From Prevotella sp. (GTDB lineage: Bacteria > Bacteroidota > Bacteroidia > Bacteroidales > Bacteroidaceae): a stretch of 48,790 nt of DNA. Where the stretch lies: contig JAFUEP010000013.1 in NCBI GenBank assembly GCA_017470345.1, forward strand, positions 1-48,790, written 5' to 3'. Within the stretch, counting starts at the first letter, position 1; the number at the start of each line of letters is the position of its first letter. The notes beneath the pieces are model-generated. The model made no database searches. It saw nothing but the letters and a program-made list of their open reading frames with translations, and was not told the DNA's origin. Positions 2,680-47,078 of this stretch are shown here, piece by piece. A program made the translations under genes and the position numbers.

Positions 2680-2686
2680 TCACGTG

Positions 2687-2806
2687 GGCGACCGGGGCTA
2701 TTGCCGCATGCCGCTGTCGCGCATCGGCGCCTTTGCCGAATATGCGGCGGTCGACTGTAGTGCGTTGGCCAAGGTGCCCGACTATCTGACCGACGAGGAG
2801 GCCACC
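2687..2806 (+). pseudogene. Fragment of a zinc-type alcohol dehydrogenase/quinone reductase
   Basis: The frame starting GGC GAC at 2687 encodes about 40 residues typical of the catalytic-domain edge of medium-chain dehydrogenases: MPLSRIGAFAEYAAVDCSAL followed by AKVPDYLTDEEA. There is no start, no cofactor domain and no continuation. Homology ends within a few bases of the junction with the duplicated Abi_2 unit at about 2807, so arrival of that unit, or a deletion linked to it, probably removed the rest. Confidence 0.7.
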
Positions 2807-2907
2807 GGCGGCTCGAACGGAGAACGGAAAGACGGGGCTGCGTATATCAGGTAATTTGAGAAAAAATGAGGGAAACTCCTTGACATAAGCGATTTTTCCT
2901 CAAAATA

Positions 2908-2939
2908 TTTGGCCATCTCAGAGGAAAATAGTATTTTTG
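2908..2939 (+). promoter_or_regulatory. Promoter of Abi_2 unit A
   Basis: TTTG at 2908-2911, a 20-bp spacer and TATTTTTG at 2932-2939 form a textbook Bacteroidetes promoter. Transcription should begin near 2946, just before the hairpin. The same arrangement with the same spacer is found in unit B. Confidence 0.8.
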
Positions 2940-2945
2940 CACCAC

Positions 2946-2999
2946 GAGAACCCGCCAAGCCTCTTCACAATGCTTAAATCGGCGGGGCGTTTTATTTTT
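2946..2999 (+). ncRNA. Hairpin RNA before Abi_2 gene A (abiF-motif-like)
   Basis: The predicted transcript folds with CCCGCC (2951-2956) pairing GGCGGG (2981-2986) and an inner AAGC/GCTT stem (2957-2960 with 2972-2975). It is followed by GCGTTTTATTTTT directly before the ATG at 3000, so it looks like an intrinsic terminator sitting at the start codon. In unit B the outer stem is TCCCACC/GGTGGGA: both arms changed together. A structured RNA called the abiF motif has been described upstream of Abi_2 genes; assigning this hairpin to it is my inference. Confidence 0.65.
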
Positions 3000-3888
3000 A
3001 TGGTACATTATTCAAAGACCTACTCATCACCGAGCCAATTAGTCTCGCTGTTGCTATCTCGTGGACTGCTCATTGAGAATGCAACGCGAACGGAGAACTA
3101 TCTTCGCCACATCGGTTATTACAGATTCAGCGCTTATCTCTATCCTCTTCTGACAACACCGAAGGAGAACCATGTTTTCAAGCCCGGTGTCATGTTCAAT
3201 CAAGCCTTGGACATGTATCGTTTCGACAGGCATCTACGTGATGTTCAACGAGATTGAGAAAATTGAGATTGCTGTCCGTAGCGCCATTGTCAACATAACG
3301 AGCCGCGAGACTGGCAATCCTTTTTGGATGACCGACCCGACATGCTTCTATGATGCCAGCACTTTCACGAAGACAAAGCAACTTATCGATGCTGAACTTG
3401 CAAAGTCGCGTGAGGACTTCATCGAGCATTTCCGCAACGCTTATTCTGACCCGTATCCTCCCGCTTGGATGTTGGCCGAGATTCTTCCCTTGGGTGTACT
3501 GACAAGGATATACGACAACATCAAGAGCAACCAGATTCGAAAGAAGATAGCCCAAGAGTTCTCATTAGGTATCCCCGTCTTCAATTCATGGATGACCATC
3601 ATCACGGTTGCCCGTAACAATTGCGGTCATCATGCCCGTGTGTGGAATCGCACATTTGCTTTGCAAGTGCTCACTCAGCGGCGAATGACCCAACCTTGGA
3701 TTACGATACCAGTCAACCAGCGTAAAGCCTATTTCAGCCTTTGCATCATCAAGTATTTCCTGAACATCATTTCTCCCCATAATGACATGAAGGCCAAAAT
3801 CAATGCCCTTCTTGCCAACTATCCAGCCATCGATACCGCCGCCATGGGCTTCCCCCGCGGATGGGAGGATGAACCGCTGTGGCAATGA
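3000..3888 (+). pseudogene. Abi_2 (AbiD/AbiF-type HEPN) gene A, frameshifted
   Basis: The N-terminal half (RGLLIENATRTENYLRHIGY, then YYRFSAYLYPL) reads from ATG 3000 in one frame and stops at 3257 after MYRFDRHLRD. The second half (VMFNEIEKIEIAVRS to the end) continues in the next frame from about 3236. Alignment with gene B places the lesion at 3230-3245, a net change of +1 or -2. The C-terminal half keeps the HEPN RNase motif R-x4-H (RNNCGH) and the ending MGFPRGWEDEPLWQ. Abi_2 proteins are abortive-infection or toxin-type proteins that, with HEPN motifs, are expected to cut RNA. The gene is likely dead, unless the shift is a sequencing error or a recoding site; I see no slippery heptamer. 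Confidence 0.8.
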
Positions 3889-4001
3889 AACTCCCGGTCC
3901 CAGTGAGGGCGGCTCGAACGGAAAGACGGTGCTGCGTATTGGGTAATTTGAGAAAAATTTGAGGAAAATCTCCATGACAGAAGCAATTTTTCCTCAAATT
4001 G

Positions 4002-4033
4002 TTTGGCTATATCAGAGAAAAGCAGTACTTTTG
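4002..4033 (+). promoter_or_regulatory. Promoter of Abi_2 unit B with an upstream palindrome
   Basis: TTTG at 4002-4005, 20 bp, then TACTTTTG at 4026-4033. Directly upstream, TTTGAGGAAAA (3958-3968) and TTTTTCCTCAAA (3988-3999) form an inverted repeat, which could be an operator. In unit A the same palindrome is present but imperfect. Confidence 0.75.
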
Positions 4034-4038
4034 CACCA

Positions 4039-4100
4039 ACAAATCCCACCACGCTTCTCGTCGCAAGACCAGCGGACCAGGGTGGGACGTTTCTTTTTAT
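4039..4100 (+). ncRNA. Hairpin RNA before Abi_2 gene B (abiF-motif-like)
   Basis: TCCCACC (4044-4050) pairs with GGTGGGA (4081-4087), with CGCT/AGCG possible inside, followed by CGTTTCTTTTTAT and the ATG at 4101. Layout, position and stem length match unit A while loop sequences differ, as expected for an RNA kept for its fold and for a partner that has diverged. It could be a free antitoxin or guide-like RNA ending at the T-run, with read-through giving the Abi_2 mRNA. Confidence 0.65.
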
Positions 4101-4994
4101 ATGGAATATACTAAGCAGCCCATCACCCTCGCTGAACAGATAAACATTCTGAAACAGCGGGGGCTTATTATTGAAAACGAGGACGAAGCACTGAGCGTCC
4201 TCAACCACATCAGTTACTTCCGTCTTGCCAGTTACTGGCGCATCATGGAAGAGAACAGCCGCATACATCGTTTCCGTAGCGGAAGCAGATTCTCTTCTGT
4301 CTTGACACTTTACAATTTCGACAGCGAACTGCGCTCTTTGGTATTCACTGCCTTGCAGCATATTGAGATTGCTTCAAGGACAAAAATCAACCAGCACTTT
4401 GCCATGACCTATGGCTCCTTCTGGTTTATGGATTCCACACTCGCAGCCAACGAATACCGCTACGACAAGAATCTGGAATCCCTGCGCACGGAGTTAGGAC
4501 GTTGCCGCGATGAGTTCATTCTGGAGCATTTCCGGAAATACAACTCGCCTGAGTTCCCACCCTCATGGAAGACGCTTGAAGTTGCCTCATTCGGCACACT
4601 CTCCAAGCTCTACAACAATATGAACGACTTCAACCTGATGAAGCGTGTGGCCCGCGATTTCGACATGCCCCAGCACGAATATCTGCGCAGTTGGCTGGAA
4701 AGCCTCACTATCGTCCGCAACTATTGTGCCCATCATGCCCGACTTTGGAATGCACATTTTGCCGTGCGTCCAAAGATAACGCCACGGATGCGCCAGCGAT
4801 GGATAACCAATTTCAATTTCCCAATCGACCGTCTTTATCCTCAACTTTGCTGCATTGCTTATTGGCTCAACAGCATCAATCCCCAGAACACTTTTGTTCA
4901 GGACTTCAAATCTCTTCTGACGAAATATCCCAGTGTGCAACCCTCCATGATGGGCTTCCCCCGTGGATGGGAGAACGAACCGCTGTGGCAATGA
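4101..4994 (+). CDS. Abi_2 (AbiD/AbiF-type HEPN) protein B
   Basis: The 297-residue protein starts at ATG 4101, right after the hairpin RNA; upstream in-frame codons fall inside that RNA and are not used. It has the Abi_2 landmarks: RGLIIENEDEALSVLNHISY and YFRLASYW near residues 20-50, FDSELRSLVFTALQHIEIAS at about 75-95, and RNYCAHHARLWN near residue 215, which contains the HEPN catalytic R-x4-H (RNYCAH). It ends MGFPRGWENEPLWQ like its paralogue. Known Abi_2 members block phage growth by killing or arresting the host cell, and HEPN motifs point to RNA cleavage. It is probably held in check by the RNA encoded immediately upstream. It is intact, unlike gene A, and sits in lower-GC sequence than the rest of the window, which suggests acquisition as a defence module. 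Confidence 0.85.
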   Translation: MEYTKQPITLAEQINILKQRGLIIENEDEALSVLNHISYFRLASYWRIMEENSRIHRFRSGSRFSSVLTLYNFDSELRSLVFTALQHIEIASRTKINQHFAMTYGSFWFMDSTLAANEYRYDKNLESLRTELGRCRDEFILEHFRKYNSPEFPPSWKTLEVASFGTLSKLYNNMNDFNLMKRVARDFDMPQHEYLRSWLESLTIVRNYCAHHARLWNAHFAVRPKITPRMRQRWITNFNFPIDRLYPQLCCIAYWLNSINPQNTFVQDFKSLLTKYPSVQPSMMGFPRGWENEPLWQ

Positions 4995-5091
4995 AACTCA
5001 TCAGCCCAGCGAGGACAGACCTGAAGCTAAAATATAATAAAAGTAGAGAAACAACGAGCGGGTAATCGGCTCCGCCGCTTCGCCCGTCGAA

Positions 5092-24280: not shown

Positions 24281-24291
24281 ATCGTTAAGTG

Positions 24292-26532
24292 ATGAAGGAA
24301 AGACTATACCTCATACTATATGCCACCCTCATGGCCGCCGCGCTGCAGGCGGCTCCCCGGTCGGACCGCCAGATGCAAGAGGCCGCCCGGGCTGCCATCA
24401 TGCGCACGCCTGCCGCTCAGCGGTCGATGCCGCTCGGGCAGCTCAGCCGTCTGAAGGCCAACAGCCACTTGCAGGTGCTGGGCTACGCCGACGGTCCCTT
24501 TGCCGTGGTGAGCCGCGACGACCGCCTGCCGGAAGTGCTGGCCGTGGCCGAAGGACGCTTCAATGAGGACAACCCCGGACTGAACTGGTGGATGGAGGCC
24601 GTCGGCCAGGTGGCAGCCCAGGTCGAGAAGACCGGACGCCGCCACACGCCAAGCCTGCCGTCAGCAAAGAAACATCCGCCCAAGGTGGAACCGCTCATCC
24701 AGACCAAGTGGGGGCAGGAGGCGCCCTTCAACGACCTCTGCCCCGTCAGGGGCAATGAGCGCACCGTGACGGGGTGTGTGGCCACCTCGATGGCGCAGGT
24801 GCTCTTCTACAACAAGTACCCCGCCCGTGGATGCGGGGGCACCAACAGCGTGACCGTGCCATACGACGACCCCGACGGCGACGTCTACGAGCTCAACTTC
24901 GACGAGCTGACCTTCGCTTACGACGACATGCTGCCCGACTATTCCGACGGCTACACCGAAGAACAGGGGCTGGCCGTTGCTCAGCTGATGTATGCCTGCG
25001 GCATTGCGGCCAACATGCACTACGACGTGAAGAGCGTAGGCGGCAGCGGCACCCTCTCCAACTATGCTCAGACCGGCCTGAACAACTTTCTGGGCTTCGA
25101 GGGCGTGAAGTTCATCTATCGCGACGCGATGGACGACCGGCTGTTTATGGACATCGTCTATACCGAGCTGGCTGCCCACCGGCCGATGATCTATGGCGGA
25201 CAGGGCAGCCAGGGGGGCCACTCGTTTGTGCTCTGCGGCTACAACGAGGAGGGGCTGGTCTACGTCAACTGGGGATGGAACGGCGACGCCAACGGCTACT
25301 ACGACATCGACCTGCTCAATCCCAAGAGCTACGCGTTTCCTGACAATCAGGACCTGGTCTACAACATCAAGACCTTCGACTACGAAGAGCCCGCCGTCGA
25401 GGTGGTGGTCGCAGAAGCCGGCACGCTGCATCAGGTGCTGCCTGCCGCCATTGAGACGGGGCTGAAGGTGGCAGGGGCCATCAACAGCACCGACCTGAAG
25501 ACCATCCGCACGCTGCTGGGATGCACTGACCGCGGGGTCTATACCGACGTGCCGCGCCTCAACGTCGACCTCTCCGAGGCGACGATAGTGGCCGGCGGCG
25601 AGCCTTATCTCATCGAGGGCAACAAGAAATACACGACTGCCGACAACGAGATTCCCTACAAGGCGTTCTACAACTGCCAGAGTCTGCGCCGTATGAAGCT
25701 GCCGAAGGAGGTGGTCCACATTGGCGACGGTGCCTGGGGCAACTGCGTCTCGCTCTGGACGGTTGTCGACAACGATGCTGAGCAGAAGGACTTCTGCATC
25801 GAAGACGACTGTATCTACAGCGCCGACCACACCGAGCTCATTGCTGCGCTGCCCGTAGAGCGCCTCCTCTCCGACACGCTCGTCGTCGGCGAGGGGGTCA
25901 CCACCATCCATCCTTACGCCTTCTCCGGCTATCAGGAACTGGCGTTTGTCGACCTGCCCCGCACGCTTGCCAGCATCGGGGCTGGCGCCTTCCAGAACAG
26001 CACCGCCATCAGCGGCATCAAGCTGCGCGCCAAGGAGCTGCCTGCGCTCGGCAAGGATGCCTTTGCCGGCATGTCGGGCAGCTGCAGGCTCTACCTCTGG
26101 GCCGGACTGAAGCAGGCGGCGCAGCGCAAGTCGCAGTGGAAGGACTTCTACGACATCATCGAGTATGGCACTACCATCACCGCCACTCATGCCACGCGGG
26201 CCAGGGGCGAAGAGAACCCCGCCTTCGGCTATACCACCCTCGGACAGCCCGTACAGGGACAGCCTGAGCTGGTCTGCGATGCTACGCCCGACAGCCCCGT
26301 CGGCACCTACGTCATCCGCTGTCTGCCCGGCACGATTACGGCCAGCGACGTTGACTACGTCGACGGCAGGCTCATCGTCACCGACCCCGACCCATCGGCC
26401 ATCGCCCACCAGCACGCGGCGCCCGACGCCCAGCACGCGGCGCCCGCCTACGACCTGCGGGGCATTTCCCCTCACGCAGCGCCCAATGCCCGCATCTCCA
26501 TTTCGAAAAAGCGCAAATTCATCGTCAAATAA
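24292..26532 (+). CDS. C10-family cysteine protease with BspA-like repeats, copy 1
   Basis: The 746-residue protein starts at ATG 24292 with a signal peptide ending LQAAP. A prodomain (residues about 25-125) is followed by the streptopain-like catalytic domain: TVTGCVATSMAQVL with the nucleophile Cys162, GGHSFVLCGYN with His310, and YVNWGWNGDANGYYD. Next come BspA-like leucine-rich repeats (CQSLRRMKLPKEVVHIGDGA, FVDLPRTLASIGAGAF), an MBG-like module (YGTTITATHATRARGEENPA) and a basic sorting-type end (ISISKKRKFIVK). This is the interpain architecture of Prevotella, which degrades host proteins. Near the end the peptide QHAAPDA is doubled by a short direct DNA repeat. Expression must come from read-through of the terminator just upstream or from a promoter I cannot see. 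Confidence 0.88.
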   Translation: MKERLYLILYATLMAAALQAAPRSDRQMQEAARAAIMRTPAAQRSMPLGQLSRLKANSHLQVLGYADGPFAVVSRDDRLPEVLAVAEGRFNEDNPGLNWWMEAVGQVAAQVEKTGRRHTPSLPSAKKHPPKVEPLIQTKWGQEAPFNDLCPVRGNERTVTGCVATSMAQVLFYNKYPARGCGGTNSVTVPYDDPDGDVYELNFDELTFAYDDMLPDYSDGYTEEQGLAVAQLMYACGIAANMHYDVKSVGGSGTLSNYAQTGLNNFLGFEGVKFIYRDAMDDRLFMDIVYTELAAHRPMIYGGQGSQGGHSFVLCGYNEEGLVYVNWGWNGDANGYYDIDLLNPKSYAFPDNQDLVYNIKTFDYEEPAVEVVVAEAGTLHQVLPAAIETGLKVAGAINSTDLKTIRTLLGCTDRGVYTDVPRLNVDLSEATIVAGGEPYLIEGNKKYTTADNEIPYKAFYNCQSLRRMKLPKEVVHIGDGAWGNCVSLWTVVDNDAEQKDFCIEDDCIYSADHTELIAALPVERLLSDTLVVGEGVTTIHPYAFSGYQELAFVDLPRTLASIGAGAFQNSTAISGIKLRAKELPALGKDAFAGMSGSCRLYLWAGLKQAAQRKSQWKDFYDIIEYGTTITATHATRARGEENPAFGYTTLGQPVQGQPELVCDATPDSPVGTYVIRCLPGTITASDVDYVDGRLIVTDPDPSAIAHQHAAPDAQHAAPAYDLRGISPHAAPNARISISKKRKFIVK

Positions 26533-26659: not shown

Positions 26660-29182
26660 ATGAAAAGAATCATCTTACTTTCTACTTCGCTGGTCGTGGC
26701 TCTCTCGCTTCAGGCCGTGCCGCGCACGCTGGAGCAGATGAAGCAGATTGCTGTGCAACAGCTCCACCGCGCTCACACTGCCGCGCACCACCACGCCATC
26801 GCATCCTCGTCGGTCATGCTGATGGAGGAGCACGACCATCTGTCGCTGCTCGGCACGGCCGACGGCGCCTGCGTCATCGTGACCAACGACGACAGGCTCC
26901 CTGCCGTCCTCGGCGTCATCCCCGCACCCTCAACGACTGGCGACCGGCAGTCGGCGCCCAACCCTGAGTTTGCCTTCTACCTCGAAGCGGCCGACGCTGC
27001 CATGGCACAGGCGCTCAACGCGCCCTCAGCGGCGCCCTCCTACCGCCGCGTGCAGCCCAACACTGCGGTCTACCCGGCTGAGGTGCCCAACCTCCTCAAG
27101 ACCACCTGGAGCCAGGACGAGCCCTACAAGAACCACACGCCGCTGATGCCCAACGGCGACAACTACGTGACGGGCTGTGTGGCCACGTCGATGGCGCAGG
27201 TGCTGGCCTACCACCGCCTGCCCATGCGCGGCACCGGCGAGGCGCAGCTGACGGCTCCCGACGGTTCCGTCATGAAGGCCGACTTTGGCCATACGCTCTA
27301 CGACTGGGACAACATGAAGGCCGCCTACAACCACGTGGAGAAGGACTATACCTTCGAAGAGGGCGAGGCCGTGGCCACACTGATGGCCCACTGCGGCGTG
27401 GCCACCAACATGACCTACGGCGAGGGTGGCAGCGGCACCAACAACACCGAAGCCCTGAATGCGCTGAAGACCTACTTCGGCTATCAGGACGCACGCCTCG
27501 CCCAGCGCACGAACTACAGCAACGACGAGGCATGGATGAACCTCATCTTCGACGAGCTGGCCCATCGCTCGCCGATCATGTACGGCGCCACCAGCACCTA
27601 CGGCCATTCGTTTGTCTTTGCCGGCTACAATGCCGACGGCTTGGTCTACGTCAACTGGGGATGGGGAGGCGACCACAACGGGTGGTTCGACGTCAATGTG
27701 CTCGACCCCGACAACAATGGCGGCTTCGTCAACAACCAGTCGATGGTCATCGGCATTCGCTCCTACCAGCCCGACGTATGGGCCGAGACGGTCAACACCA
27801 CCGCCGGCGGACAGCTCGCGTCTCTGCTCAACGCCTCGCTCACCTACGGCGAGCTCAAGGTGGTGGGCCCCATCAACAGCGACGACCTGCGCCACCTGCG
27901 CGAGCGCATCAACAGCCAGAAGCGCAACAGCTATCCCAACGCTGCCGACACCTATAGCCTCGACCTCTCTGAGGCGCAGATTGTCGTGGGCGGCCAGCCG
28001 TTCCTGACCGAGGGGAAGAACCAGTATCAGGTGGTGGCCGACGACTGTCTGCCCGACCGCGCCTTCTACGGCTGCACCAACCTGCGCTACCTGCGCCTGC
28101 CGGCCTCGCTGAAGGCCATCGGCAAGGGTGCCTTCGCCGGCTGTCAGGCTCTGACGGCGCTTGAGGGAGAGGGTGACGACTTTGTCTGCGACGGCAACAT
28201 CGTCTACAATGCCGACCGCACGCAGGTGCTGGCCGTGCTGGCCGACGCCATGGGCGAGCTCGTCATTCCCGAGGGCGTGACCGACATTGCCGACTATGCG
28301 CTCTCCACCGTCTATGCCACGACCAAGATCGACTGCCCCGCGTCGCTGGCCAACATCGGCACGGGCGCCTTCCCCACGTCGGAGTCGCTCGTCGCTCAGG
28401 TGTGGATGCGCGCCGACAAGGCGCCGAAGACGGCCGACCGCAACGTCTTCAACACCGTCGGGCCGCAGGCCGACCTCTATGTGCACGCTGCCTACGAACG
28501 GGCTTACCAGACGGCTTCGGCCTACAGGCAGTTTAAGAGCACCCGCCTCTTCGGCTCTGTCGTGACGGCCACTGGCGCCGTGCGCGAATACGGCGACGAG
28601 AACCCCACCTTCGGCTACAGCCTGAAGGGCGAGCAGATTCAGGGCGAGCCGGCCTTCGTGACCGAGGCCGACATCCATTCTCCGGCCGGCACCTACGTCA
28701 TCATGCCCACTCAGGGCAGCATCACCACGCCCGACGTGGTGTTCCAGGAGGGCAAGCTCATCGTGCAGAAGGCTCCGCTCACGGCCCGTCCCGACGACTG
28801 CAAGCGCTTCATGGGGCAGGACAACCCCGAATTCACCATCAGCTACAGTGGCCTGAAGAACGACGACACGCCCGACGTCCTGACTCAGCAGCCCATCGCC
28901 TCGACCACGGCCACGGCGCAGAGTGCTGCCGGCACTTACCCCATCACGCTCAGTGGCGGCGAGTCCGACCGCTACGAGCTGACCTTCCAGGAGGGCACGC
29001 TGACCGTCGTCGACGGCTCCGACCCGATGGCCATTCAGACGCTCTCTTCTGCTGCCGCAGACGCTCGCCAGCCTCTCTACGACCTGACGGGCCGCCGCGT
29101 AAACGTCCGGCAGTCGTCGCCCGCTACGCTCAAGAAGGGCATCTACATCAGCGGAGGGCGAAAGACAGTCGTCGGCAAGTAG
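26660..29182 (+). CDS. C10-family cysteine protease with BspA-like repeats, copy 2
   Basis: The 840-residue protein has a signal peptide ending LQAVP, a prodomain and the catalytic domain: YVTGCVATSMAQVLAYHRLP with Cys173, YGHSFVFAGYN with His316, and YVNWGWGGDHNGWFDVNV. BspA-like repeats follow (CTNLRYLRLPASLKAIGKGA, AFAGCQALTAL) and then two MBG-like modules (VTATGAVREYGDENPTFGYS; LTARPDDCKRFMGQDNPEF), one more than copy 1. It ends LYDLTGRRVNVRQSSPATLK then KGIYISGGRKTVVGK. The two proteases share domain order but are well diverged, so the duplication is old. It is probably secreted and surface-attached, taking part in host-protein breakdown. Confidence 0.88.
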   Translation: MKRIILLSTSLVVALSLQAVPRTLEQMKQIAVQQLHRAHTAAHHHAIASSSVMLMEEHDHLSLLGTADGACVIVTNDDRLPAVLGVIPAPSTTGDRQSAPNPEFAFYLEAADAAMAQALNAPSAAPSYRRVQPNTAVYPAEVPNLLKTTWSQDEPYKNHTPLMPNGDNYVTGCVATSMAQVLAYHRLPMRGTGEAQLTAPDGSVMKADFGHTLYDWDNMKAAYNHVEKDYTFEEGEAVATLMAHCGVATNMTYGEGGSGTNNTEALNALKTYFGYQDARLAQRTNYSNDEAWMNLIFDELAHRSPIMYGATSTYGHSFVFAGYNADGLVYVNWGWGGDHNGWFDVNVLDPDNNGGFVNNQSMVIGIRSYQPDVWAETVNTTAGGQLASLLNASLTYGELKVVGPINSDDLRHLRERINSQKRNSYPNAADTYSLDLSEAQIVVGGQPFLTEGKNQYQVVADDCLPDRAFYGCTNLRYLRLPASLKAIGKGAFAGCQALTALEGEGDDFVCDGNIVYNADRTQVLAVLADAMGELVIPEGVTDIADYALSTVYATTKIDCPASLANIGTGAFPTSESLVAQVWMRADKAPKTADRNVFNTVGPQADLYVHAAYERAYQTASAYRQFKSTRLFGSVVTATGAVREYGDENPTFGYSLKGEQIQGEPAFVTEADIHSPAGTYVIMPTQGSITTPDVVFQEGKLIVQKAPLTARPDDCKRFMGQDNPEFTISYSGLKNDDTPDVLTQQPIASTTATAQSAAGTYPITLSGGESDRYELTFQEGTLTVVDGSDPMAIQTLSSAAADARQPLYDLTGRRVNVRQSSPATLKKGIYISGGRKTVVGK

Positions 29183-39755: not shown

Positions 39756-42700
39756 ATGGCACGCAACATCATCACGACAATAACAACAACCACAAAATCA
39801 GTCGGCAGCACAGCACTCATCCTGCTGTGCCTGCTTTTTGTGGCAGCAGGGCAGGTGAAGGCTGACGCCTACTTCTACCTCCGCTTCCGCAACGGCGCCC
39901 GGGCCCGCAGCTACGTCTGCGACCAGGGCGTGGGCCAACAGCTGCGCATCGCCAACCGCAACAGCGCGGGCAACAGTGCTGATGACGACCGCCTCTGGAC
40001 GTGGGATGATGGCCGCCTGCGCAACCGCGCCGGTCACTATATCGCCCGCATGGCCAACGGCAACTTCACCACCACCGACGATGCCGCCGAGGCCGAGACG
40101 TTCACGCCGTGGTACGACGCGTCGGCCTTTCTCTCTCTGCTGAGCGGCAGCGACAGCATGGCCATGGGCAAGAACAACGACAACGCCAATGCCACCGTGG
40201 TAAAGAAGAACAGCAGCGATGCCAACACCCGCATCGAACTGGTCTACCATGAGCCCGACGAGCGGCATGTCTTCGTGCTCCGCTTCACGGGCAGCGGCAA
40301 TCAGGACAACAACTACCTTTATGCAGCCAAGGACGGCGCCGACCTGACCACTACCAACGGCCATGTCGAGATTACCCGCATGCAGTGGCGCATGGAGCCG
40401 GCTGATGATGGCGGTTTCCGCCTGCGCAACGAGCGGGGGCACTACATGGCATGGAAGACTGAGACGAGCCGCTACGTGGCCACGGCCGACGCTGTTGCGG
40501 CCACCAGTTTTTCGCTCACGCGCTCAGCCACGGGCGACCTCAGTCTCGTGCGCAACGGCGGCATGGCCATGACCCGCGTGAAAACCAACAACGATACGAA
40601 CAGTGATGTCGGCGAGGGCACGGCGGGCGCTCAGAGCTACGTGGAGTTCGTCGAGAGCACGGCGGAGCAGAACTGGCCCGAGTTCAGCAGTGGCCAGCGC
40701 TACTACCTGCTGTTCCAAAATAACAACCAGAACGGTCAGAAGGGCATGCTCGACCTGAAATACATCTACGGCGACGGCGACCTGGAACTGAAGGTGAACG
40801 TCGACGGACTGGCCATGTCGTGGATGCTCGACGGCACCCACGACGCCTTCCGCATGCTGCGCAGCGACGGCCGCTACATCGCCTGGGTGAAGGATCGCTA
40901 CTATGCCACGAGCGACGCCGCCAAGGCCGCCACCTTCAGTTTCGTGCGCCAGCAGAACGGCTGGGCCATCCGGCGAACAGGCTCCGACTACCTGACCTTT
41001 GCCACCAACAGCAATGGCAACGACAACTTCTTCCGCGACATCGAGGCCGTCGACCGTTCTCGTGTCTTCCTGCGGGCTACCGACGACGACTTCAATGCGC
41101 TGAGCCGTGCCACCGAGCAGATGGCGGTGATCCACCGCCAGAGCGTCTTTGCCGACCGTGCCGACGAAATCGGCGACGCCTTCCCCGACGAGTTCCTGAA
41201 GCCCGGACAGGGCTGGACGACGGCCGCCGACGGCGCGACGCAGGTGCAGAACACGTCGGAATACCACATGACACGCTACGTGAAGCGGGGCGACTACATC
41301 CCCCTCTACCTGACGATGACCAACGGCACGAGCGAAATCAAGCACCGCCGCTACCAGCGCTGGTACTTCTACGACACGGAGAAGCCGCTGACGCTTGACT
41401 ACTACTACCCGCAGACCTGCGCCAGCGTCTACAGCAACGGTCTCGTGATGGGCAACAGCATCAAGCAGCCGACGGCCACCAGCCGCAGCAACGTAGCCGG
41501 ACAGCTGGCCCTCATCGCGCGGCTGCCGGAGCGCTCGGTCTATGCCGGCGACACGCTGCGCATCGCGGGCGACATCAGCCGCTACAGCGACATGACCTAC
41601 GACGTCCCGAAAGCAACCTACGGGGCCGACGCGGGCAACCTCGTGGAGCCCACGCTGACGCTGCGCCAGATCTTTACCGTCATCGACGCCAACGTCATGG
41701 CCCGCAAGCTGACGGCCATGACTGGCGACGACTGGCTCGAGGAATACACCGTCCACTTCCCGGCGCGGCTGCTGGGCACGGTGGCCTACGAGGTGCTGCC
41801 GCTGGAGCTGGGCTTGGAAAACTACTGGATGTACCGCGACGGCATCGCCGACGACGACCATCTGGTGAATATCGTCAGCGACGACTACGTCACCTGGGAG
41901 GTGGACGACCCCGACGGCACGGGCATCAAGATCCTGGGCTTCGAGGATGCCCCCGACAACAACCGCACCCGCTTTGTGAGCAACACGCAGAAGAAGCGCC
42001 GCCGACTGCTGAAGTTCCAGTACCCGGCGGGCTACAGCGTCACGGCGGGCCGTCAGGTGGTACTGAAGGTCTACGGCCGCGACAGCAAGACGTCGTCGGC
42101 CCGCTACAATATAGCCCGCTTCACCATCATCTTCGACGAGGCCAGCGAGACGCTCTACTGGAAGGACGTCGTCGGCGACGATGCGCCCCGCAGCGAGCGC
42201 TCGCCACAGAGCCTGCGCCAGCTGTGCGACGACCACGACCCCGTGGCCCACATCGACTTCGACTACCCGTCGCAGTATAGCTTCCAGATGCCCCCGAACG
42301 GCGGCGAGTACAACGCCGGCAACGACATCAAACTGTCGTGCGCCCTGCCCCTACAGTATCAGATGACGAACTATACCTACGGGCAGGTGACACCGAGCTG
42401 GGCCAGCTACGGCATCTGCACCGAGAGCAACTACGCATTTAGCAACCCTGTGCAGAAGATGCGCCCCGCGAGTGAATATACGGGTGTAAAGTATTCCGAC
42501 CGCTACGACGCCGGACTCATGTATGTGGACGCGAGCGACTTCCCCGGCACGGTGGCCACCATCAAGTTCAACGGCTCTTTCTGCGTCGGCTCGCGCCTGA
42601 TGTGCAGCGGCTGGATAGCGTCGGTCAGCGGCACCAATGCCGGCAGCGGGAAGGCGCCCAGCTCGATTATCCTGAGCGTCGTCGGCAAGAAGGGCGGCCG

Positions 42701-45700
42701 CGAGCAGACGCTCTACACCTTCTGCCCGGGTCAGGTGGACAACCGCACCGTCCGCCAGGGCTCCACCGCCATCGTGAACTATAAGGACGAGGGCAACCAG
42801 GCCATGTGGCACCAGTTCTACTTCACCTTCGTGGTGACCGAACTCTACGAGGAGTACGAGCTGCACATCGAGAACAACAGCCGTTCGACGGCGGGTGCCG
42901 ACTATCTGATCGACGACGTGTGGGTGTTCGCCAAGCTGCCCAAGGTGCGCATGGCCATGTCGTCGCCCCTGTGCGGCGGCGAGCTGGCCGTGATGAAGCT
43001 TGAGACCGACTTCGAGTCGCTCCTCTCGGCCCAGGGCAAGCAGGAGGCCACGGGCGACGACCCCGGCCAGGAGGACTACCTCTGCTGCGTCTATCTCGAC
43101 CGCACGCAGTTCTATGCCGGATTCCGCGAGATGCTGGCCGCCGACCACAGCCTGACGTTCGACGACTTCGATACGTTCCTGGCCCGCGTCAATGCCGGTG
43201 CGTTCGATGACGAGCAGTATTTCGAGAGCTACCAGAAAGCCTTCGATGCCGCCCTGATGAAGGTCGACGCCGTCGATGCGCAGGGGCAGGTGACGGGCCA
43301 GCGCGTGCCCTACGCCAACTTCCGCTGGACCACCAACTTCAGCCTGATGCCCCCCTATACGTTTGCCCGCATGGCCAAGGACGAGGACATGACCGTCTTT
43401 GCAGGCACTGAGGCCGGCGTGCGCAAGCTCATCTTCAACGGCACGATGGGCATCAACACCTGGGAGGACTACAAGAGCTACACCCTGCTCACCATCCAGC
43501 CGGGACGCGCCATCAGCGATGCCGACGTGCCGGAGTTTGCCCGTCTGTTCAACCTGCTCGACGAGTGTTCCAACCAGAGCTATTTCAAGCTGCTGCCCAA
43601 GATCGAGGTCGTGGGCCACGTCGGCCGGCAGACGCTCGACGAGATCACCTTCTGCGAAAACTCTGTCCAGACGTTTGCCATCGAGCTGGCCGGATATACC
43701 TTCAACGACGAGGGCGACGAGGCCACCTACGTGCTCGACAACGTGAACTTCGACTGGTGGATCGGCGACAGCCTGACGTCGGCCACCGTCAGCGAATACC
43801 GCCGCGTGACGAGCGACGACGGCAGCGTCAGCCTTGAAGTGGCCCTGAAGCGCTTCCGCCTGATGAACCCCTTCGCCACCGACCTCTTCACCGGCATCAG
43901 GCTCGGTGCGCCCGAGCTCTATCCCGACCAGGAGTTCACCGAACCCATGCTGGCCCTGCTGCGCCAGCTGGCCGCCCCCGCCGACGGGAGCTATCCCACG
44001 TTGTTCCTCAACAGCAAGCTCATCGACGTCAACCTGAGCCAGAAGTACATGAAGATTGTCGAGGAGCCCAACATCGAGGGCACCACCGACCGCTATGTCT
44101 ACGTGGCGGCCATTCCCATCGAGACCCAGATCAACAAGGAGACCGAGAACTACGTCTTCATCTGCTCCGACCCGCAGCCCGTGAAGCTCAAGGTGGACGG
44201 CGTGGCGCCCGTCGTGCAGACGGGCTTCAGCGAGAAGCGCTACCCCGACGACATCGGCATGCTCAGCGTGCGCATCTCGAAAAGCCAGTTCGAGAAGGTG
44301 CGCCAGCGCGGCACCGCCGTGCCTCCCTGTCTGCACATCCCCCTGCGCGGCGTCCGGCTGGCCCACACGGAGGAGGCCGTCGGCGTGACCATGCCGGCCG
44401 AGGCGTCGGCCCGCGTCGTGCTGCTCACGGGCACCACCGACCCCCTGATGGAGCAATTCATCATCGCGGGCTACCAGAACCTGCTGCCGCCCGTCGTCGG
44501 ACGGCTGACCTACCTGCAGGCCACGCCTGAGGCAGGCCCCGACGACGAGAGCGGGAACGTGGGCGACGTGACCGAGTGCGTCAAACTCTATTTCGACGAG
44601 GGCTTCCGGGTCCGCGAGGGCTATAGCTACACCATCCGCTTCCCGTTTGTCGAGCTCATCAGCAGCGGCTACGACGACATCGAGTCGTGCGAGGGCAGCA
44701 CGGGCGTGGAACTGAAGATCGTGCCCGACTACGAGGTGTGGACCGGACAGGCCGACAACGTCGACTGGAGCAACGACGACAACTGGCGACGCGCTGACTT
44801 CGACGAGCTCTTTGCCGGCAACGGTCAGCGGCTCACGGCCGACCCCGAGGCCGACAACTACTACATGACCAACGACGTGAACTACGTCAGCGACGACGAC
44901 CGCCTGCGGCGACGCGGCTTTGCGCCGCTCTACTGCACCAACGTGCTCCTGATGAACGGCGAGACGGCCCCGGCCCCCGTGCTCTACGATGACGGCGACG
45001 AATACGCTGACGACGGCCAGCCGACGGGATTCCCCGCCCTGCGCCCGACGGCCTCGCCCATCATCCGCTACGACTTCCAGACCTATGAATGGACCGACAG
45101 CCACGACGCCGAGGCGACCGACAAGGAGCGCAGCGTGCGCCAGGTGGGCGACATGATCACCGAACTCTACCACACGAACACCTGCGACGGGATGGTGCTG
45201 CAGTCGGAGGCCGAGCTGCTCCACAGCGAACTGCTCAACTACGGGAAGGCGTGGTTGGAGTATGCCCTCGGCAAGAACCGCTGGCACCTCGTCGCCTCGC
45301 CCCTGAAGGACATGATCTCGGCCGAGTGGTACGCCCCGACGTGGAGCGCCCGCCAGGAGACCACCTACTTCGAGCCGGTGACGTTCGACGAGCCCCCCGT
45401 GGCCATCGTTGCCACGGCCGTCGCGCAGCCCTACAGGCTGGGCTACGACCGCTTTGCACCGGCCGTCTATCAGCGGGCCTGGGACAAGGCCAAAGCCGTC
45501 GTCTACGAGCATGGTGCGACGTGGAGCGCCGACGACGGCGACCAGACAAAGGACAACACCGGCGACGCCAGCCAGGGCGGCTGGACGTGGCAAGGCGACG
45601 ACAATTTCCAGACGTGGGACAGCCACAATGCCGACGACTATCTGGATCGCATTGCCTACCGTCCCATGGGTCCGTCGAAGGCCAACGTCGCCATCCGGGG

Positions 45701-47078
45701 CACGTGGAGCGGCGTCTACAATGACCACAGCGTGCCCTACAGTGCGGGCGGGTTCTGCGTGATGCCCATCAACAGTCTGAAGGCGCACGACGACGAGGCG
45801 CAGCCCGCCGTCTTCCGCCTGCCCAAGGAGGACGGCTATTACGACATCTGGGACTGGAGCAAGGGCTACGACGTGGAGAACCGCGTGCGCATCTTCATCA
45901 GCGACGGACAGACAGCCACGACGCCTGCCGACCGGACGCTGACGCTGCCCGACCGCGGCCGACTGCGCACCGACGACCTGACGGCTGAGGCACCGCAGCT
46001 GAGCGTCACACTCAAGAACGAGGGGCAGGGCAGCGTGGGCTATTTCCTGGCAGCCAACCCCTTCGTCTGCGGCCTCGACATGCAGGCGTTCTTCAGCGCT
46101 AACCCGCAGCTGGCGCCTTTCTACTTGGTTCTTGAGAACAGCGACATCGCCATCGGCGACTCGCTGACCGTGGGGCGCGACTGGCGATGGACCGACGTGG
46201 TGGTCAATGGCTCGGCTGAGGACGCCGACGCCTTCGCCGGGCGCCGGGTGGTGCCGGCCCGCCGCGCATTCTTCGTCAAGGTGCGTGACCCGGAGGCCAG
46301 TCAGGACAGCGTCACAGTGGTGTTCAACACCGCGATGATGACCGTCGGACGAGAAGGAGCACACCCCCAACCAAGAGAAGCCCACCCCCAACCCCTCCCA
46401 AACGGGAGGGGAGCTTCAATGGTTCTCCCCTCCCGCTCGGGCGGGGGGGGACTCCTTCTGCATGCTGAACGCCATGGCAACGTGAGCGAGGCCCGCGTAG
46501 TGATAAGCCCCGATGCCCAGGATTACTTCGACCCCGACGAGGACGTGGAGGCCTTCACGGTAGAAGGCATCACGGACGACGTGCCCGTGGTCTACACCCT
46601 CTGCGGCCGCCTGGCCACGAGCATCAACCGCCTCAGCAACTTCGGCGTGCTGCCCTTGGGCATCACGTCATCCAGTAGCGACCCCTGCATGGTCAGCTTC
46701 AGCGGCGTCGGCAGCCTCGGCACGGATAGTCTGATGCTCTACGATGCAGCCCATCAGACGCTGACGCCCCTGACCGAGGGTCTGCAGGTCACGATGCCCG
46801 GACGCACCGAGGGCCGCTACTTCATCGTCAGCGGCATCGGGCGCGACCAGCCCTCGGGAGCCCCGTCGATCAGCATTACGCCCCTGCAGGGCGCCGTCGG
46901 CGTGGAGGCAGAAGGGCAGGAGATCAGCCTGGTCAGCATCTACAATCCGCTGGGCCTGACCGTCGCCTCAGTGCAGCCCCGCCGACGGGCGTGCACCGTC
47001 CCGCTGCCATCGGGCACCTACATTGTGCTGGCCGCCACGGCCGATGCGCAGGCCGTGCGCAAGATAGTGATCAGATAA
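39756..47078 (+). CDS. 2440-residue giant surface protein, candidate fimbrial tip adhesin
   Basis: The protein has a long signal peptide (hydrophobic core TALILLCLLFVAAGQ, about 19-33). Residues about 38-440 contain repeated beta-trefoil-like units (YFYLRFRNGARARSYVC, GGFRLRNERGHYMAWKTE, DAFRMLRSDGRYIAWVKD), suggesting carbohydrate binding. A jelly-roll-like segment lies at about 905-1070 (VATIKFNGSFCVGSRLMCSG to YLIDDVWVFAKL). VWTGQADNVDWSNDDNW near 1660 is common in large T9SS cargo. The C-terminus (LVSIYNPLGLTVASVQPRRR, SGTYIVLAATADAQAVRKIV) is sorting-like. It closes the fimbrial operon, where Porphyromonas encodes the tip protein Mfa5; there is no VWA domain as in Mfa5. A CTCC-type repeat block is accepted in frame at 46359-46455. 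Ligand unknown. Confidence 0.8.
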   Translation: MARNIITTITTTTKSVGSTALILLCLLFVAAGQVKADAYFYLRFRNGARARSYVCDQGVGQQLRIANRNSAGNSADDDRLWTWDDGRLRNRAGHYIARMANGNFTTTDDAAEAETFTPWYDASAFLSLLSGSDSMAMGKNNDNANATVVKKNSSDANTRIELVYHEPDERHVFVLRFTGSGNQDNNYLYAAKDGADLTTTNGHVEITRMQWRMEPADDGGFRLRNERGHYMAWKTETSRYVATADAVAATSFSLTRSATGDLSLVRNGGMAMTRVKTNNDTNSDVGEGTAGAQSYVEFVESTAEQNWPEFSSGQRYYLLFQNNNQNGQKGMLDLKYIYGDGDLELKVNVDGLAMSWMLDGTHDAFRMLRSDGRYIAWVKDRYYATSDAAKAATFSFVRQQNGWAIRRTGSDYLTFATNSNGNDNFFRDIEAVDRSRVFLRATDDDFNALSRATEQMAVIHRQSVFADRADEIGDAFPDEFLKPGQGWTTAADGATQVQNTSEYHMTRYVKRGDYIPLYLTMTNGTSEIKHRRYQRWYFYDTEKPLTLDYYYPQTCASVYSNGLVMGNSIKQPTATSRSNVAGQLALIARLPERSVYAGDTLRIAGDISRYSDMTYDVPKATYGADAGNLVEPTLTLRQIFTVIDANVMARKLTAMTGDDWLEEYTVHFPARLLGTVAYEVLPLELGLENYWMYRDGIADDDHLVNIVSDDYVTWEVDDPDGTGIKILGFEDAPDNNRTRFVSNTQKKRRRLLKFQYPAGYSVTAGRQVVLKVYGRDSKTSSARYNIARFTIIFDEASETLYWKDVVGDDAPRSERSPQSLRQLCDDHDPVAHIDFDYPSQYSFQMPPNGGEYNAGNDIKLSCALPLQYQMTNYTYGQVTPSWASYGICTESNYAFSNPVQKMRPASEYTGVKYSDRYDAGLMYVDASDFPGTVATIKFNGSFCVGSRLMCSGWIASVSGTNAGSGKAPSSIILSVVGKKGGREQTLYTFCPGQVDNRTVRQGSTAIVNYKDEGNQAMWHQFYFTFVVTELYEEYELHIENNSRSTAGADYLIDDVWVFAKLPKVRMAMSSPLCGGELAVMKLETDFESLLSAQGKQEATGDDPGQEDYLCCVYLDRTQFYAGFREMLAADHSLTFDDFDTFLARVNAGAFDDEQYFESYQKAFDAALMKVDAVDAQGQVTGQRVPYANFRWTTNFSLMPPYTFARMAKDEDMTVFAGTEAGVRKLIFNGTMGINTWEDYKSYTLLTIQPGRAISDADVPEFARLFNLLDECSNQSYFKLLPKIEVVGHVGRQTLDEITFCENSVQTFAIELAGYTFNDEGDEATYVLDNVNFDWWIGDSLTSATVSEYRRVTSDDGSVSLEVALKRFRLMNPFATDLFTGIRLGAPELYPDQEFTEPMLALLRQLAAPADGSYPTLFLNSKLIDVNLSQKYMKIVEEPNIEGTTDRYVYVAAIPIETQINKETENYVFICSDPQPVKLKVDGVAPVVQTGFSEKRYPDDIGMLSVRISKSQFEKVRQRGTAVPPCLHIPLRGVRLAHTEEAVGVTMPAEASARVVLLTGTTDPLMEQFIIAGYQNLLPPVVGRLTYLQATPEAGPDDESGNVGDVTECVKLYFDEGFRVREGYSYTIRFPFVELISSGYDDIESCEGSTGVELKIVPDYEVWTGQADNVDWSNDDNWRRADFDELFAGNGQRLTADPEADNYYMTNDVNYVSDDDRLRRRGFAPLYCTNVLLMNGETAPAPVLYDDGDEYADDGQPTGFPALRPTASPIIRYDFQTYEWTDSHDAEATDKERSVRQVGDMITELYHTNTCDGMVLQSEAELLHSELLNYGKAWLEYALGKNRWHLVASPLKDMISAEWYAPTWSARQETTYFEPVTFDEPPVAIVATAVAQPYRLGYDRFAPAVYQRAWDKAKAVVYEHGATWSADDGDQTKDNTGDASQGGWTWQGDDNFQTWDSHNADDYLDRIAYRPMGPSKANVAIRGTWSGVYNDHSVPYSAGGFCVMPINSLKAHDDEAQPAVFRLPKEDGYYDIWDWSKGYDVENRVRIFISDGQTATTPADRTLTLPDRGRLRTDDLTAEAPQLSVTLKNEGQGSVGYFLAANPFVCGLDMQAFFSANPQLAPFYLVLENSDIAIGDSLTVGRDWRWTDVVVNGSAEDADAFAGRRVVPARRAFFVKVRDPEASQDSVTVVFNTAMMTVGREGAHPQPREAHPQPLPNGRGASMVLPSRSGGGGLLLHAERHGNVSEARVVISPDAQDYFDPDEDVEAFTVEGITDDVPVVYTLCGRLATSINRLSNFGVLPLGITSSSSDPCMVSFSGVGSLGTDSLMLYDAAHQTLTPLTEGLQVTMPGRTEGRYFIVSGIGRDQPSGAPSISITPLQGAVGVEAEGQEISLVSIYNPLGLTVASVQPRRRACTVPLPSGTYIVLAATADAQAVRKIVIR
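46359..46455. repeat. CTCC-type repeat block inside the giant gene
   Basis: A degenerate CACCCCCAACC pair is followed by CCCCTCCCAAACGGGAGGGG and a second hairpin TCCCCTCCCGCTCGGGCGGGG. Encoded peptide includes HPQPREAHPQPLPNGRG. It interrupts an otherwise regular beta-rich region. Confidence 0.7.

Follow-up and report, generated by a model that had tools for sequence, protein, structure and literature searches.

The systems closest to the locus treated here are the AbiF toxins and their abiF RNAs. The locus consists of two tandem units, A and B, each with a promoter, a hairpin RNA and an Abi_2 gene, in 48,790 nucleotides (nt) of DNA from a Prevotella sp. (contig JAFUEP010000013.1 of assembly GCA_017470345.1; this whole stretch is called the window). 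Structure 8vz6 of the Protein Data Bank (PDB) is PbAbiF-AbiFr, the AbiF of a Prevotellaceae bacterium (PMC12737573, PMC12373285). PbAbiF is described as dimeric, each monomer carrying one RNA, with its RNase blocked by two nucleotides of a single-stranded bulge; the same paper describes AbiF as the likely ancestor of Cas13 and its RNA as the forerunner of guide RNAs (PMC12737573). The AbiF of Clostridioides difficile is reported to be toxic and to be neutralised by the RNA RCd22, in cis through a terminator with read-through and in trans by binding (PMC12373285). In phages, abiF RNA is in print for cyanophage S-CREM1 and for three further phages in Rfam (PMC9964418), and a review describes its role there as unconfirmed (PMC12197685).

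Unit B is, with a probability that we put at roughly 85%, a complete AbiF-type (type III-like) toxin-antitoxin module; unit A would be a module of the same kind and of another RNA class, with its toxin frame lost. Each unit taken singly is explained by known biology – AbiF, as a type III toxin with an RNA antitoxin, and the PbAbiF structure 8vz6. New here are the asymmetry between hairpins and toxin genes across 299 genomes and the presence of both hairpin classes in viral contigs, mostly without a toxin gene; the outer stems of these viral hairpins are compensated, and tRNA genes are often their neighbours.

Anatomy of the two units

Protein B matches PF07751 (Abi_2) with 174.5 bits (cut-off 25.6) and the PADLOC AbiD model with 252.7 bits, and it aligns over its full length with PbAbiF (PDB 8vz6, E 1.5e-60). 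The two pieces of gene A reach 45 and 118.5 bits on PF07751, both above the cut-off, and the second piece matches 8vz6 with an E value of 1.5e-89. In aligned relatives from both clades, the R of the HEPN motif R-x4-H is present in 22 of 22 and the H in 21 of 22 (L049 has Y). By homology to 8vz6, the window's toxins would have a HEPN fold and form dimers. Protein B has a single Abi_2 domain in 297 amino acids (aa), compared with the two HEPN domains and the guide-bearing CRISPR array by which Cas13 systems are recognised.

The original prediction, made from the sequence and its open reading frames, described tandem 1.1-kb units of promoter, hairpin, T-run and Abi_2 gene. Motif search, RF03085 and the Abi_2 profile confirm this arrangement (Table 1). 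That each unit is a HEPN toxin gene of the AbiF/AbiD type preceded by an abiF-type RNA, in line with the same account, is supported by the Abi_2, AbiD and 8vz6 matches and by the RNA models described below. The boxes of both units follow the Bacteroidota-type (-33/-7) promoter consensus; perfect copies of TTTG-N19/20-TAnnTTTG number three when both strands of the 48.8 kb are counted, compared with 0.15 in base shuffles. The outer stems are CCCGCC/GGCGGG in A and TCCCACC/GGTGGGA in B, and hairpin B has a 7-bp outer stem, an A bulge, a CGC/GCG inner stem and the 3' strand GACCAG. By eye, two pairs are changed on both sides from A to B: G-C becomes A-U in the outer stem, and A-U becomes C-G in the inner stem. 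A T-run follows each hairpin, and both start codons (ATG 3000 in A, ATG 4101 in B) lie 13 nt past it. A candidate antitoxin RNA placed 5' of a toxin gene with a terminator between them (a stem and T-run, by eye) is the layout of a type III toxin-antitoxin system. Repeats are named as a key feature of type III antitoxins (PMC12373285); units A and B have a single hairpin each.

Table 1. Positions of the twin units and the features around them in the window.
Feature	Position	Strand	Evidence
Units A and B in tandem, each of about 1.1 kb	about 2811-4994	+	
Remnant of a zinc-type alcohol dehydrogenase gene (3' end and 127 nt from the middle)	2684-2866	+	comparison with L086
Unit A promoter, TTTG-N20-TATTTTTG	2908-2939 (TTTG 2908-2911; TATTTTTG 2932-2939)	+	motif search
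Unit A candidate antitoxin RNA core, A-class (AGC/GCU inner stem, 3' strand UAAAUC)	about 2951-2986	+	RF03085
Unit A putative toxin gene, first piece, 85 aa, stop after frame change	3000-3257	+	PF07751 positions 1-47
Unit A putative toxin gene, second piece, other frame, HEPN motif RNNCGH	3238-3888	+	PF07751 positions 47-184
Dehydrogenase 3' end, second copy, with GGSNGKTVLRIG before the stop	3908-3946	+	by eye; L086 protein ends likewise
Imperfect inverted repeat TTTGAGGAAAAT/ATTTTTCCTCAAA just 5' of the unit B promoter	3958-3998	+	by eye
Unit B promoter, TTTG-N20-TACTTTTG	4002-4033 (TTTG 4002-4005; TACTTTTG 4026-4033)	+	motif search
Unit B candidate antitoxin RNA core, B-class, then T-run	4044-4087	+	R1 model, covariation
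Unit B putative toxin gene, intact, 297-aa AbiF/AbiD-type HEPN protein, RNYCAH (R206, H211)	4101-4994	+	

Gene A is split into two frames, a break missed in the original prediction. Its pieces cover family positions 2-79 and then 80-297; no profile positions are lost between them, so a small frame change is the simplest account. The gene is continuous in the A-clade relatives L110, L122 and L127. Unit A appears to be an antitoxin that has outlived its toxin, with the promoter and RNA kept and the toxin frame lost in the assembly. With toxin gene A broken in this way, the proposal that the genome carries two working, independent pairs finds no support. The inverted repeat before the unit B promoter, which has a weaker counterpart 5' of unit A, is a possible operator.

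Two classes of hairpin RNA

Hairpin A matches the Rfam abiF family, RF03085, with 56.4 bits (gathering threshold 37), and hairpin B has no match to it up to an E value of 10 in 1401 bases. The suggested check of both hairpins against the abiF covariance model was thus positive for A and negative for B, and hairpin B is therefore assigned to a B class that is related to the curated family yet lies outside it. It scores 69.5 bits on a B-class model, R1, in which it is itself one of the 39 sequences. The R1 alignment holds distinct B hairpins; duplicates, A-class rows, scores below 24 and three chance hits of a C class were dropped.

Among 64 B-clade loci, a strict-pairing script recognised the architecture of hairpin B at 62, compared with 4 of 192 shuffles. 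A second script recovered the two loci missed and missed three others, so that each of the 64 was found at least once. RNAalifold, unaided, gave the same 10 pairs for the 39 B hairpins, in which 94.4% of cells are paired and 7 of the 10 pairs have double changes. Covariation is 0.340 against 0.168 in shuffled alignments, a value reached by none of 500 shuffles, and slid controls gave 0.02-0.09. The compensatory stem change that had been proposed from the two window hairpins is borne out in their relatives by these values.

By script and by eye, the B class has a variable outer stem of 6-8 pairs, a one-base bulge, a mostly CGC/GCG inner stem, a loop of 11-17 nt and a 3' strand that is mostly nACCAG or nACCAC. 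The A class has an AGC/GCU inner stem and the 3' strand yAAAUC or yAAAUG. RF03085 recognised all 15 of the A-clade loci given to it, 3 of 17 from the B clade (counted at their own hairpin) and none of three in a third group. RNAs of the C class (L128, L145, L153 and others; 17 rows of the protein tree) have an inner stem near GGCA/TGCC, with GATC or GAAC before TGC; they precede a separate Abi_2 clade and match abiF at none of three loci tested.

Folding of single sequences was rejected as evidence, with z scores of -0.95 for hairpin A and a modest -2.11 for hairpin B, and only A among four hairpins folded alone formed its inner stem. Because the lone folds are weak, the support for the hairpins is comparative.

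On a tree of 123 distinct proteins (A 41, B 56, B2 5, C 17 and 4 unlabelled), the four RNA classes of the 119 labelled rows need three changes, which is the minimum. The RNA class is locked to the protein clade, and since it follows the clade it supports, without proving, a specific pairing of RNA and toxin.

Hairpins with and without a toxin gene in the genus

Among 299 genomes of the same genus, R1 matches were found in 119 and RF03085 matches in 84. These merged into 228 RNA places, of which 225 were read and 3 were not fetched; R1 hits that scored below 41 bits or were not printed, and six RF03085 hits under the cut-off, were dropped. Behind A-class places there were 46 intact toxin genes, 13 broken ones and 33 with none (13 at a contig edge or too short); behind B-class places the corresponding numbers were 41, 30 and 35 (14 at an edge or too short). 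In total, 198 hairpins were assessable (the 225 minus 27 at contig edges or with short downstream DNA), and 87 of these have an intact toxin gene behind them, 43 a broken one and 68 none. The broken category includes the G190 and G208 orphans, which lie more than 200 nt before the next unit, and some hairpins counted as having none keep a few toxin codons.

In the opposite direction, the start of the toxin gene could be seen at 107 A- or B-clade loci, and 106 of these have a hairpin (B 64 of 64, A 42 of 43; the window's two included, four A/B rows without a gene start excluded). An open frame of 255 aa or longer is present at 104 of them, and 103 of the 104 have a hairpin. The exception, L139, is an A-clade toxin with a long open frame (gene at 1059) and a hairpin that lacks its 5' arm. 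In a second unit of that genome (G119), L143, the hairpin is complete. An antitoxin role predicts such an asymmetry – toxins nearly always with a hairpin, hairpins often without a toxin.

The odds are about even that the stand-alone bacterial hairpins are functionless, decaying relics of toxin-gene deletion. The TAnnTTTG box is present before 49 of 67 toxin-less hairpins and 84 of 87 with an intact toxin gene (Fisher p 3e-5), the median B-class model score is slightly lower without a toxin gene (57.0 against 60.6, p 0.04), and several toxin-less hairpins, inspected by eye, keep the first toxin codons. The loss of the promoter box is a sign of decay in part of these hairpins, and the asymmetry does not prove that they work. 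Against their being relics, most toxin-less hairpins fit the model well (hits below 41 bits being uncounted), and viral hairpins, described below, vary while their pairing is kept. A further argument comes from a single chromosomal slot, in which the right flanks are identical at 131 of 134 positions and the apical class of the hairpin nevertheless differs.

This slot holds a toxin-less hairpin in G190, G208 and G194, of the B class in G190 and of the A class in the other two. Its left flank is 92% identical between G190 and G208 and 85% over 115 shared bases between G190 and G194; its right flank is identical at 131 of 134 positions for G190 and G194, 127 of 147 for G190 and G208 and 117 of 143 for G208 and G194. 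By eye, G190 and G194 have the same bases before the hairpin and the same outer stem, and differ in the inner stem, loop and 3' strand; their promoters differ in part. A complete B unit follows this left flank in G136 (86% identity). G208 and G190 each have a complete unit as neighbour of the toxin-less hairpin, and the two differ in class.

Two further settings of A-class RNA were seen. At L009 (1297-1333, minus strand), an A-class abiF RNA with a promoter and no Abi gene lies directly behind a complete B unit and a terminator-like hairpin. In L263, L265, L287 and L304 (G258:C19, G122:C21:45961, G304:C34 and G288:C90), A-class hairpins directly follow a stop codon; by eye, the preceding gene looks alike in all four and the usual promoter box is absent. 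These hairpins are perhaps released from the 3' end of an mRNA.

Hairpins in viral contigs and phages

A pattern search of IMG/VR found the B hairpin in 55 contigs and the A hairpin in 46. Most of the stem pairs were not required by the search patterns, although two bases, the innermost, are fixed in the A pattern. In 39 B and 40 A hits the outer stem has at least 4 pairs, and the remaining 16 of 55 B and 6 of 46 A hits were dropped for lack of a good stem. In the 1.2 kb behind the 79 hairpins kept, 67 have no Abi match, 4 have an intact and 2 a partial toxin gene, and 6 end too soon.

Outer stems of at least 5 pairs were counted in 27 of 42 distinct B hairpins, against 4.5 when right arms were dealt among the contigs, and in 28 of 40 distinct A hairpins against 10.7, the A excess being smaller. 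Chance was rejected as the source of the viral hits, as the outer stems exceed this dealing. Among viral hairpins, covariation is 0.484 against 0.165 for the B class (29 distinct sequences, one of which, L338, has a partial toxin gene) and 0.250 against 0.094 for the A class (27 sequences), with 0 of 500 shuffles reaching either value. Some shuffles did reach the observed count of doubly changed pairs (B 52 of 500, A 106 of 500) and, in A, that of further pair types (23 of 500), and the invariant apex of the viral alignments is imposed by the search patterns. R1 finds all 35 viral B loci given to it, and the Rfam abiF model none of 13. In ten B-class viral contigs, from which one open reading frame each was taken, four frames matched named PHROGs (terminase twice, a primase/helicase and DnaB), two matched unknown families and four had no match. 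Viral contigs L417 and L421 have 23 tRNA genes, and L417 has, by eye, a second abiF-like stretch just upstream of its hairpin.

Among GenBank phages, blastn with an A-class query gave 50 records – 37 of Mycobacterium phages, 4 of Aeromonas, 2 each of Acinetobacter, Salicola, Arthrobacter and Synechococcus, and one unnamed. Of ten records fetched, nine pass the Rfam threshold (the Arthrobacter one fails), and in nine the hairpin lies between annotated genes, while that of Baka overlaps a hypothetical gene. B-class RNA was not found in GenBank phage records by blastn with three queries; the hits seen there were A-class, and one of the queries gave just two weak matches, inside a regulator gene. 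Abi_2 was found in none of the ten isolate phage records and in 5 of 40 viral contigs given (which may be fragments), these five being the contigs with a toxin match behind the hairpin. Homologues of toxin B occur in 71 phage records, of Streptococcus, Clostridioides and other Bacillota phages and unnamed ones, and this list has no named genus in common with the list of hairpin phages. Hairpins lie within 300 nt of a tRNA gene in 35 of 83 cases, compared with 615 of 4150 random places in the same loci; the 83 include near-copies (e.g. L348, L353, L358, L371 and L373). In the mycobacteriophages Thibault (L436, 2881-2962) and LittleE (L437, 2530-2611), sub-threshold matches to the DUF3800-IV RNA lie near the abiF RNA.

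Tentatively, and at somewhat less than even odds, abiF-type hairpins would be a widespread, free-standing RNA counter-defence. Those of phages with unrelated hosts, of the A or the B class and often in tRNA clusters, would be decoys that hold the host AbiF inactive during infection; toxin-less bacterial ones, such as RNA A, would be anti-addiction antitoxins; and the apical half would be exchanged to change the class of toxin targeted.

It is improbable that the hairpins are transcription attenuators or elements of the 5' untranslated region that act only in cis, with no antitoxin role in trans. The position of each hairpin, 13 nt before a start codon with a terminator-like T-run, would suit an attenuator, and cis repression through a terminator is reported for RCd22 (PMC12373285). 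RCd22 is, however, reported to work in trans as well (PMC12373285), and plain attenuation does not predict that the apical class tracks the protein clade. Simple attenuation stays a rival only, because hairpins kept without a toxin gene, in bacteria (68 of 198 with none and 43 with a broken one) and in viral contigs (67 of 79), do not fit it.

Origin of the tandem pair

The observation that the upstream DNA of the two units is better kept than their proteins was confirmed, with 107 of 124 aligned bases identical compared with 38% (83 of 221) for the proteins. (A DNA identity of 73% for genes A and B comes from a gappy alignment and was not used.) This shared DNA is the 3' end of a dehydrogenase gene plus the promoter, present twice. 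In L086 (Prevotella sp. RGIG4836), an intact zinc-type alcohol dehydrogenase gene (1846-2847) is directly followed by a B unit with a broken toxin gene. Window positions 2684-2810 are 89% identical to 2095-2221 of L086, 2822-2964 are 77% identical to 2817-2958, and 3908-4223 are 93% identical to 2809-3123.

Closer relatives of each unit are found in other genomes. B has a 98% relative elsewhere, and the A-clade proteins of L110, L122 and L127 score 416-432 bits against 160 between A and B. With proteins A and B 38% identical to each other and each closer to these relatives, the A and B units were already distinct, and the flank alone is a young repeat. The pair looks like two ready-made units brought together, since both classes occur in many genomes, have closer relatives elsewhere and carry the same dehydrogenase 3' end in each flank. 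On the same grounds, divergence of the two units in place is doubtful. The duplication in place that the original prediction implied, with unit A a copy of unit B and both arms diverging afterwards, is very unlikely: the 107 of 124 upstream bases and the twofold dehydrogenase end speak for it, but proteins that are 38% identical, each closer to relatives elsewhere, belong to units distinct beforehand.

Tandem toxin genes as a widespread arrangement were considered and rejected, as two adjacent Abi genes were seen at none of 153 loci outside the window's genome, viewed with flanks of 1.5 or 3 kb at most. Copies of abiF at neighbouring positions are reported elsewhere (PMC12373285). At the RNA level, 14 same-strand neighbour pairs lie within 4 kb, the window's included, and four of these are A with B.

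Elsewhere in the window, two neighbouring Peptidase_C10 proteins (24289-26532 and 26660-29182) have leucine-rich repeat matches, one with a Spi inhibitor domain. An open reading frame of 2440 aa (39756-47078) with no Pfam match at 1e-6 lies downstream of genes with fimbrillin C-terminal domains.

Proposed mechanism

A small hairpin RNA probably keeps an RNA-cutting, self-killing enzyme in check. The single promoter of unit B would give a short hairpin RNA that mostly ends at the T-run, and occasional read-through would give the toxin mRNA, with its start codon 13 nt behind the hairpin. The toxin would be a dimeric HEPN RNase, inactive while bound by the hairpin, and the class of toxin that a hairpin serves would depend on its apical half, made up of the inner stem, the loop and the single strand on the 3' side. 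When the supply of RNA falls, as in phage infection, the freed toxin would cut RNA and growth would stop. By our own counting, the blocking nucleotides of PbAbiF may correspond to the ends of the 3' strand that differs between A and B.

The anatomy, the homology, the covariation, the locking of RNA class to clade and the broken frame are read from the sequences themselves. Toxicity, RNA binding and neutralisation are known in homologues, and we infer their extension to the window's proteins and RNAs, together with the phage trigger.

Several points weigh against this account of the two units. The genome is a draft (61.55% complete, 68 contigs), and the frame change in gene A may for this reason be an assembly error. 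Some genomes are represented twice among the 107 toxin loci, which have 99 distinct upstream sequences. Further pair types in the 39 B hairpins are not above shuffles (11 against 12.9), and hairpin B folded alone has the outer stem without the CGC/GCG inner stem. The protein tree was made by a quick method, with long branches flagged. Each window RNA has one hairpin, compared with two motifs in RCd22.

Comparison with known systems

The literature search found no second hairpin class, toxin-less bacterial abiF RNAs or decoy role, though a Cell 2025 paper on AbiF and a 2017 paper on structured RNA motifs may hold some of these. The account of S-CREM1, in the sections available, makes no statement of an anti-AbiF role, a B class, covariation, toxin absence or a tRNA neighbourhood (PMC9964418).

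PbAbiF-AbiFr resembles the window's units in protein homology (to the second piece of A and the full length of B), the R-x4-H motif, the C-terminus and the hairpin RNA. Unit B differs from it in protein clade and in its B-class hairpin, where the candidate for the inhibitory single-stranded bulge, as that feature is described for PbAbiF, is in most cases nACCAG or nACCAC, in place of yAAAUC or yAAAUG. The C. difficile AbiF-RCd22 system, as published, shares with the window the order promoter, RNA, terminator and toxin, the abiF motif and the HEPN motif (PMC12373285). RCd22, however, is described as lying in a prophage lysis module, while the window's units lie behind a dehydrogenase relic. Unit A is a member of RF03085. 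Unit B shares with that family the outer stem, one-base bulge, 3-bp inner stem, loop and 6-nt 3' strand, but the B class mostly falls under its threshold (3 of 17 B-clade loci and 0 of 13 viral loci pass) and so escapes present annotation. The B class would be a natural second lock-and-key pair for AbiF, and the confinement of the class-specific part to the apical half of the hairpin would make RNA-toxin specificity testable.

The bacterial toxin-less hairpins resemble anti-addiction antitoxins as these are described in PMC12548467. The viral abiF hairpins are like the pseudo-ToxI of phage PhiTE, which counters ToxIN, in that the antitoxin is an RNA and the phage carries an RNA resembling it (PMC3475682). 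ToxI is a pseudoknot repeat that serves another toxin family, and PhiTE is reported to have needed repeat expansion (PMC3475682), whereas most of the viral abiF hairpins occur as one copy with a full stem, and the phages that carry them have hosts in several genera. The toxin-less hairpins of bacteria and phages suggest a counter-defence made of RNA alone, and PhiTE against ToxIN is one worked-out example of this.

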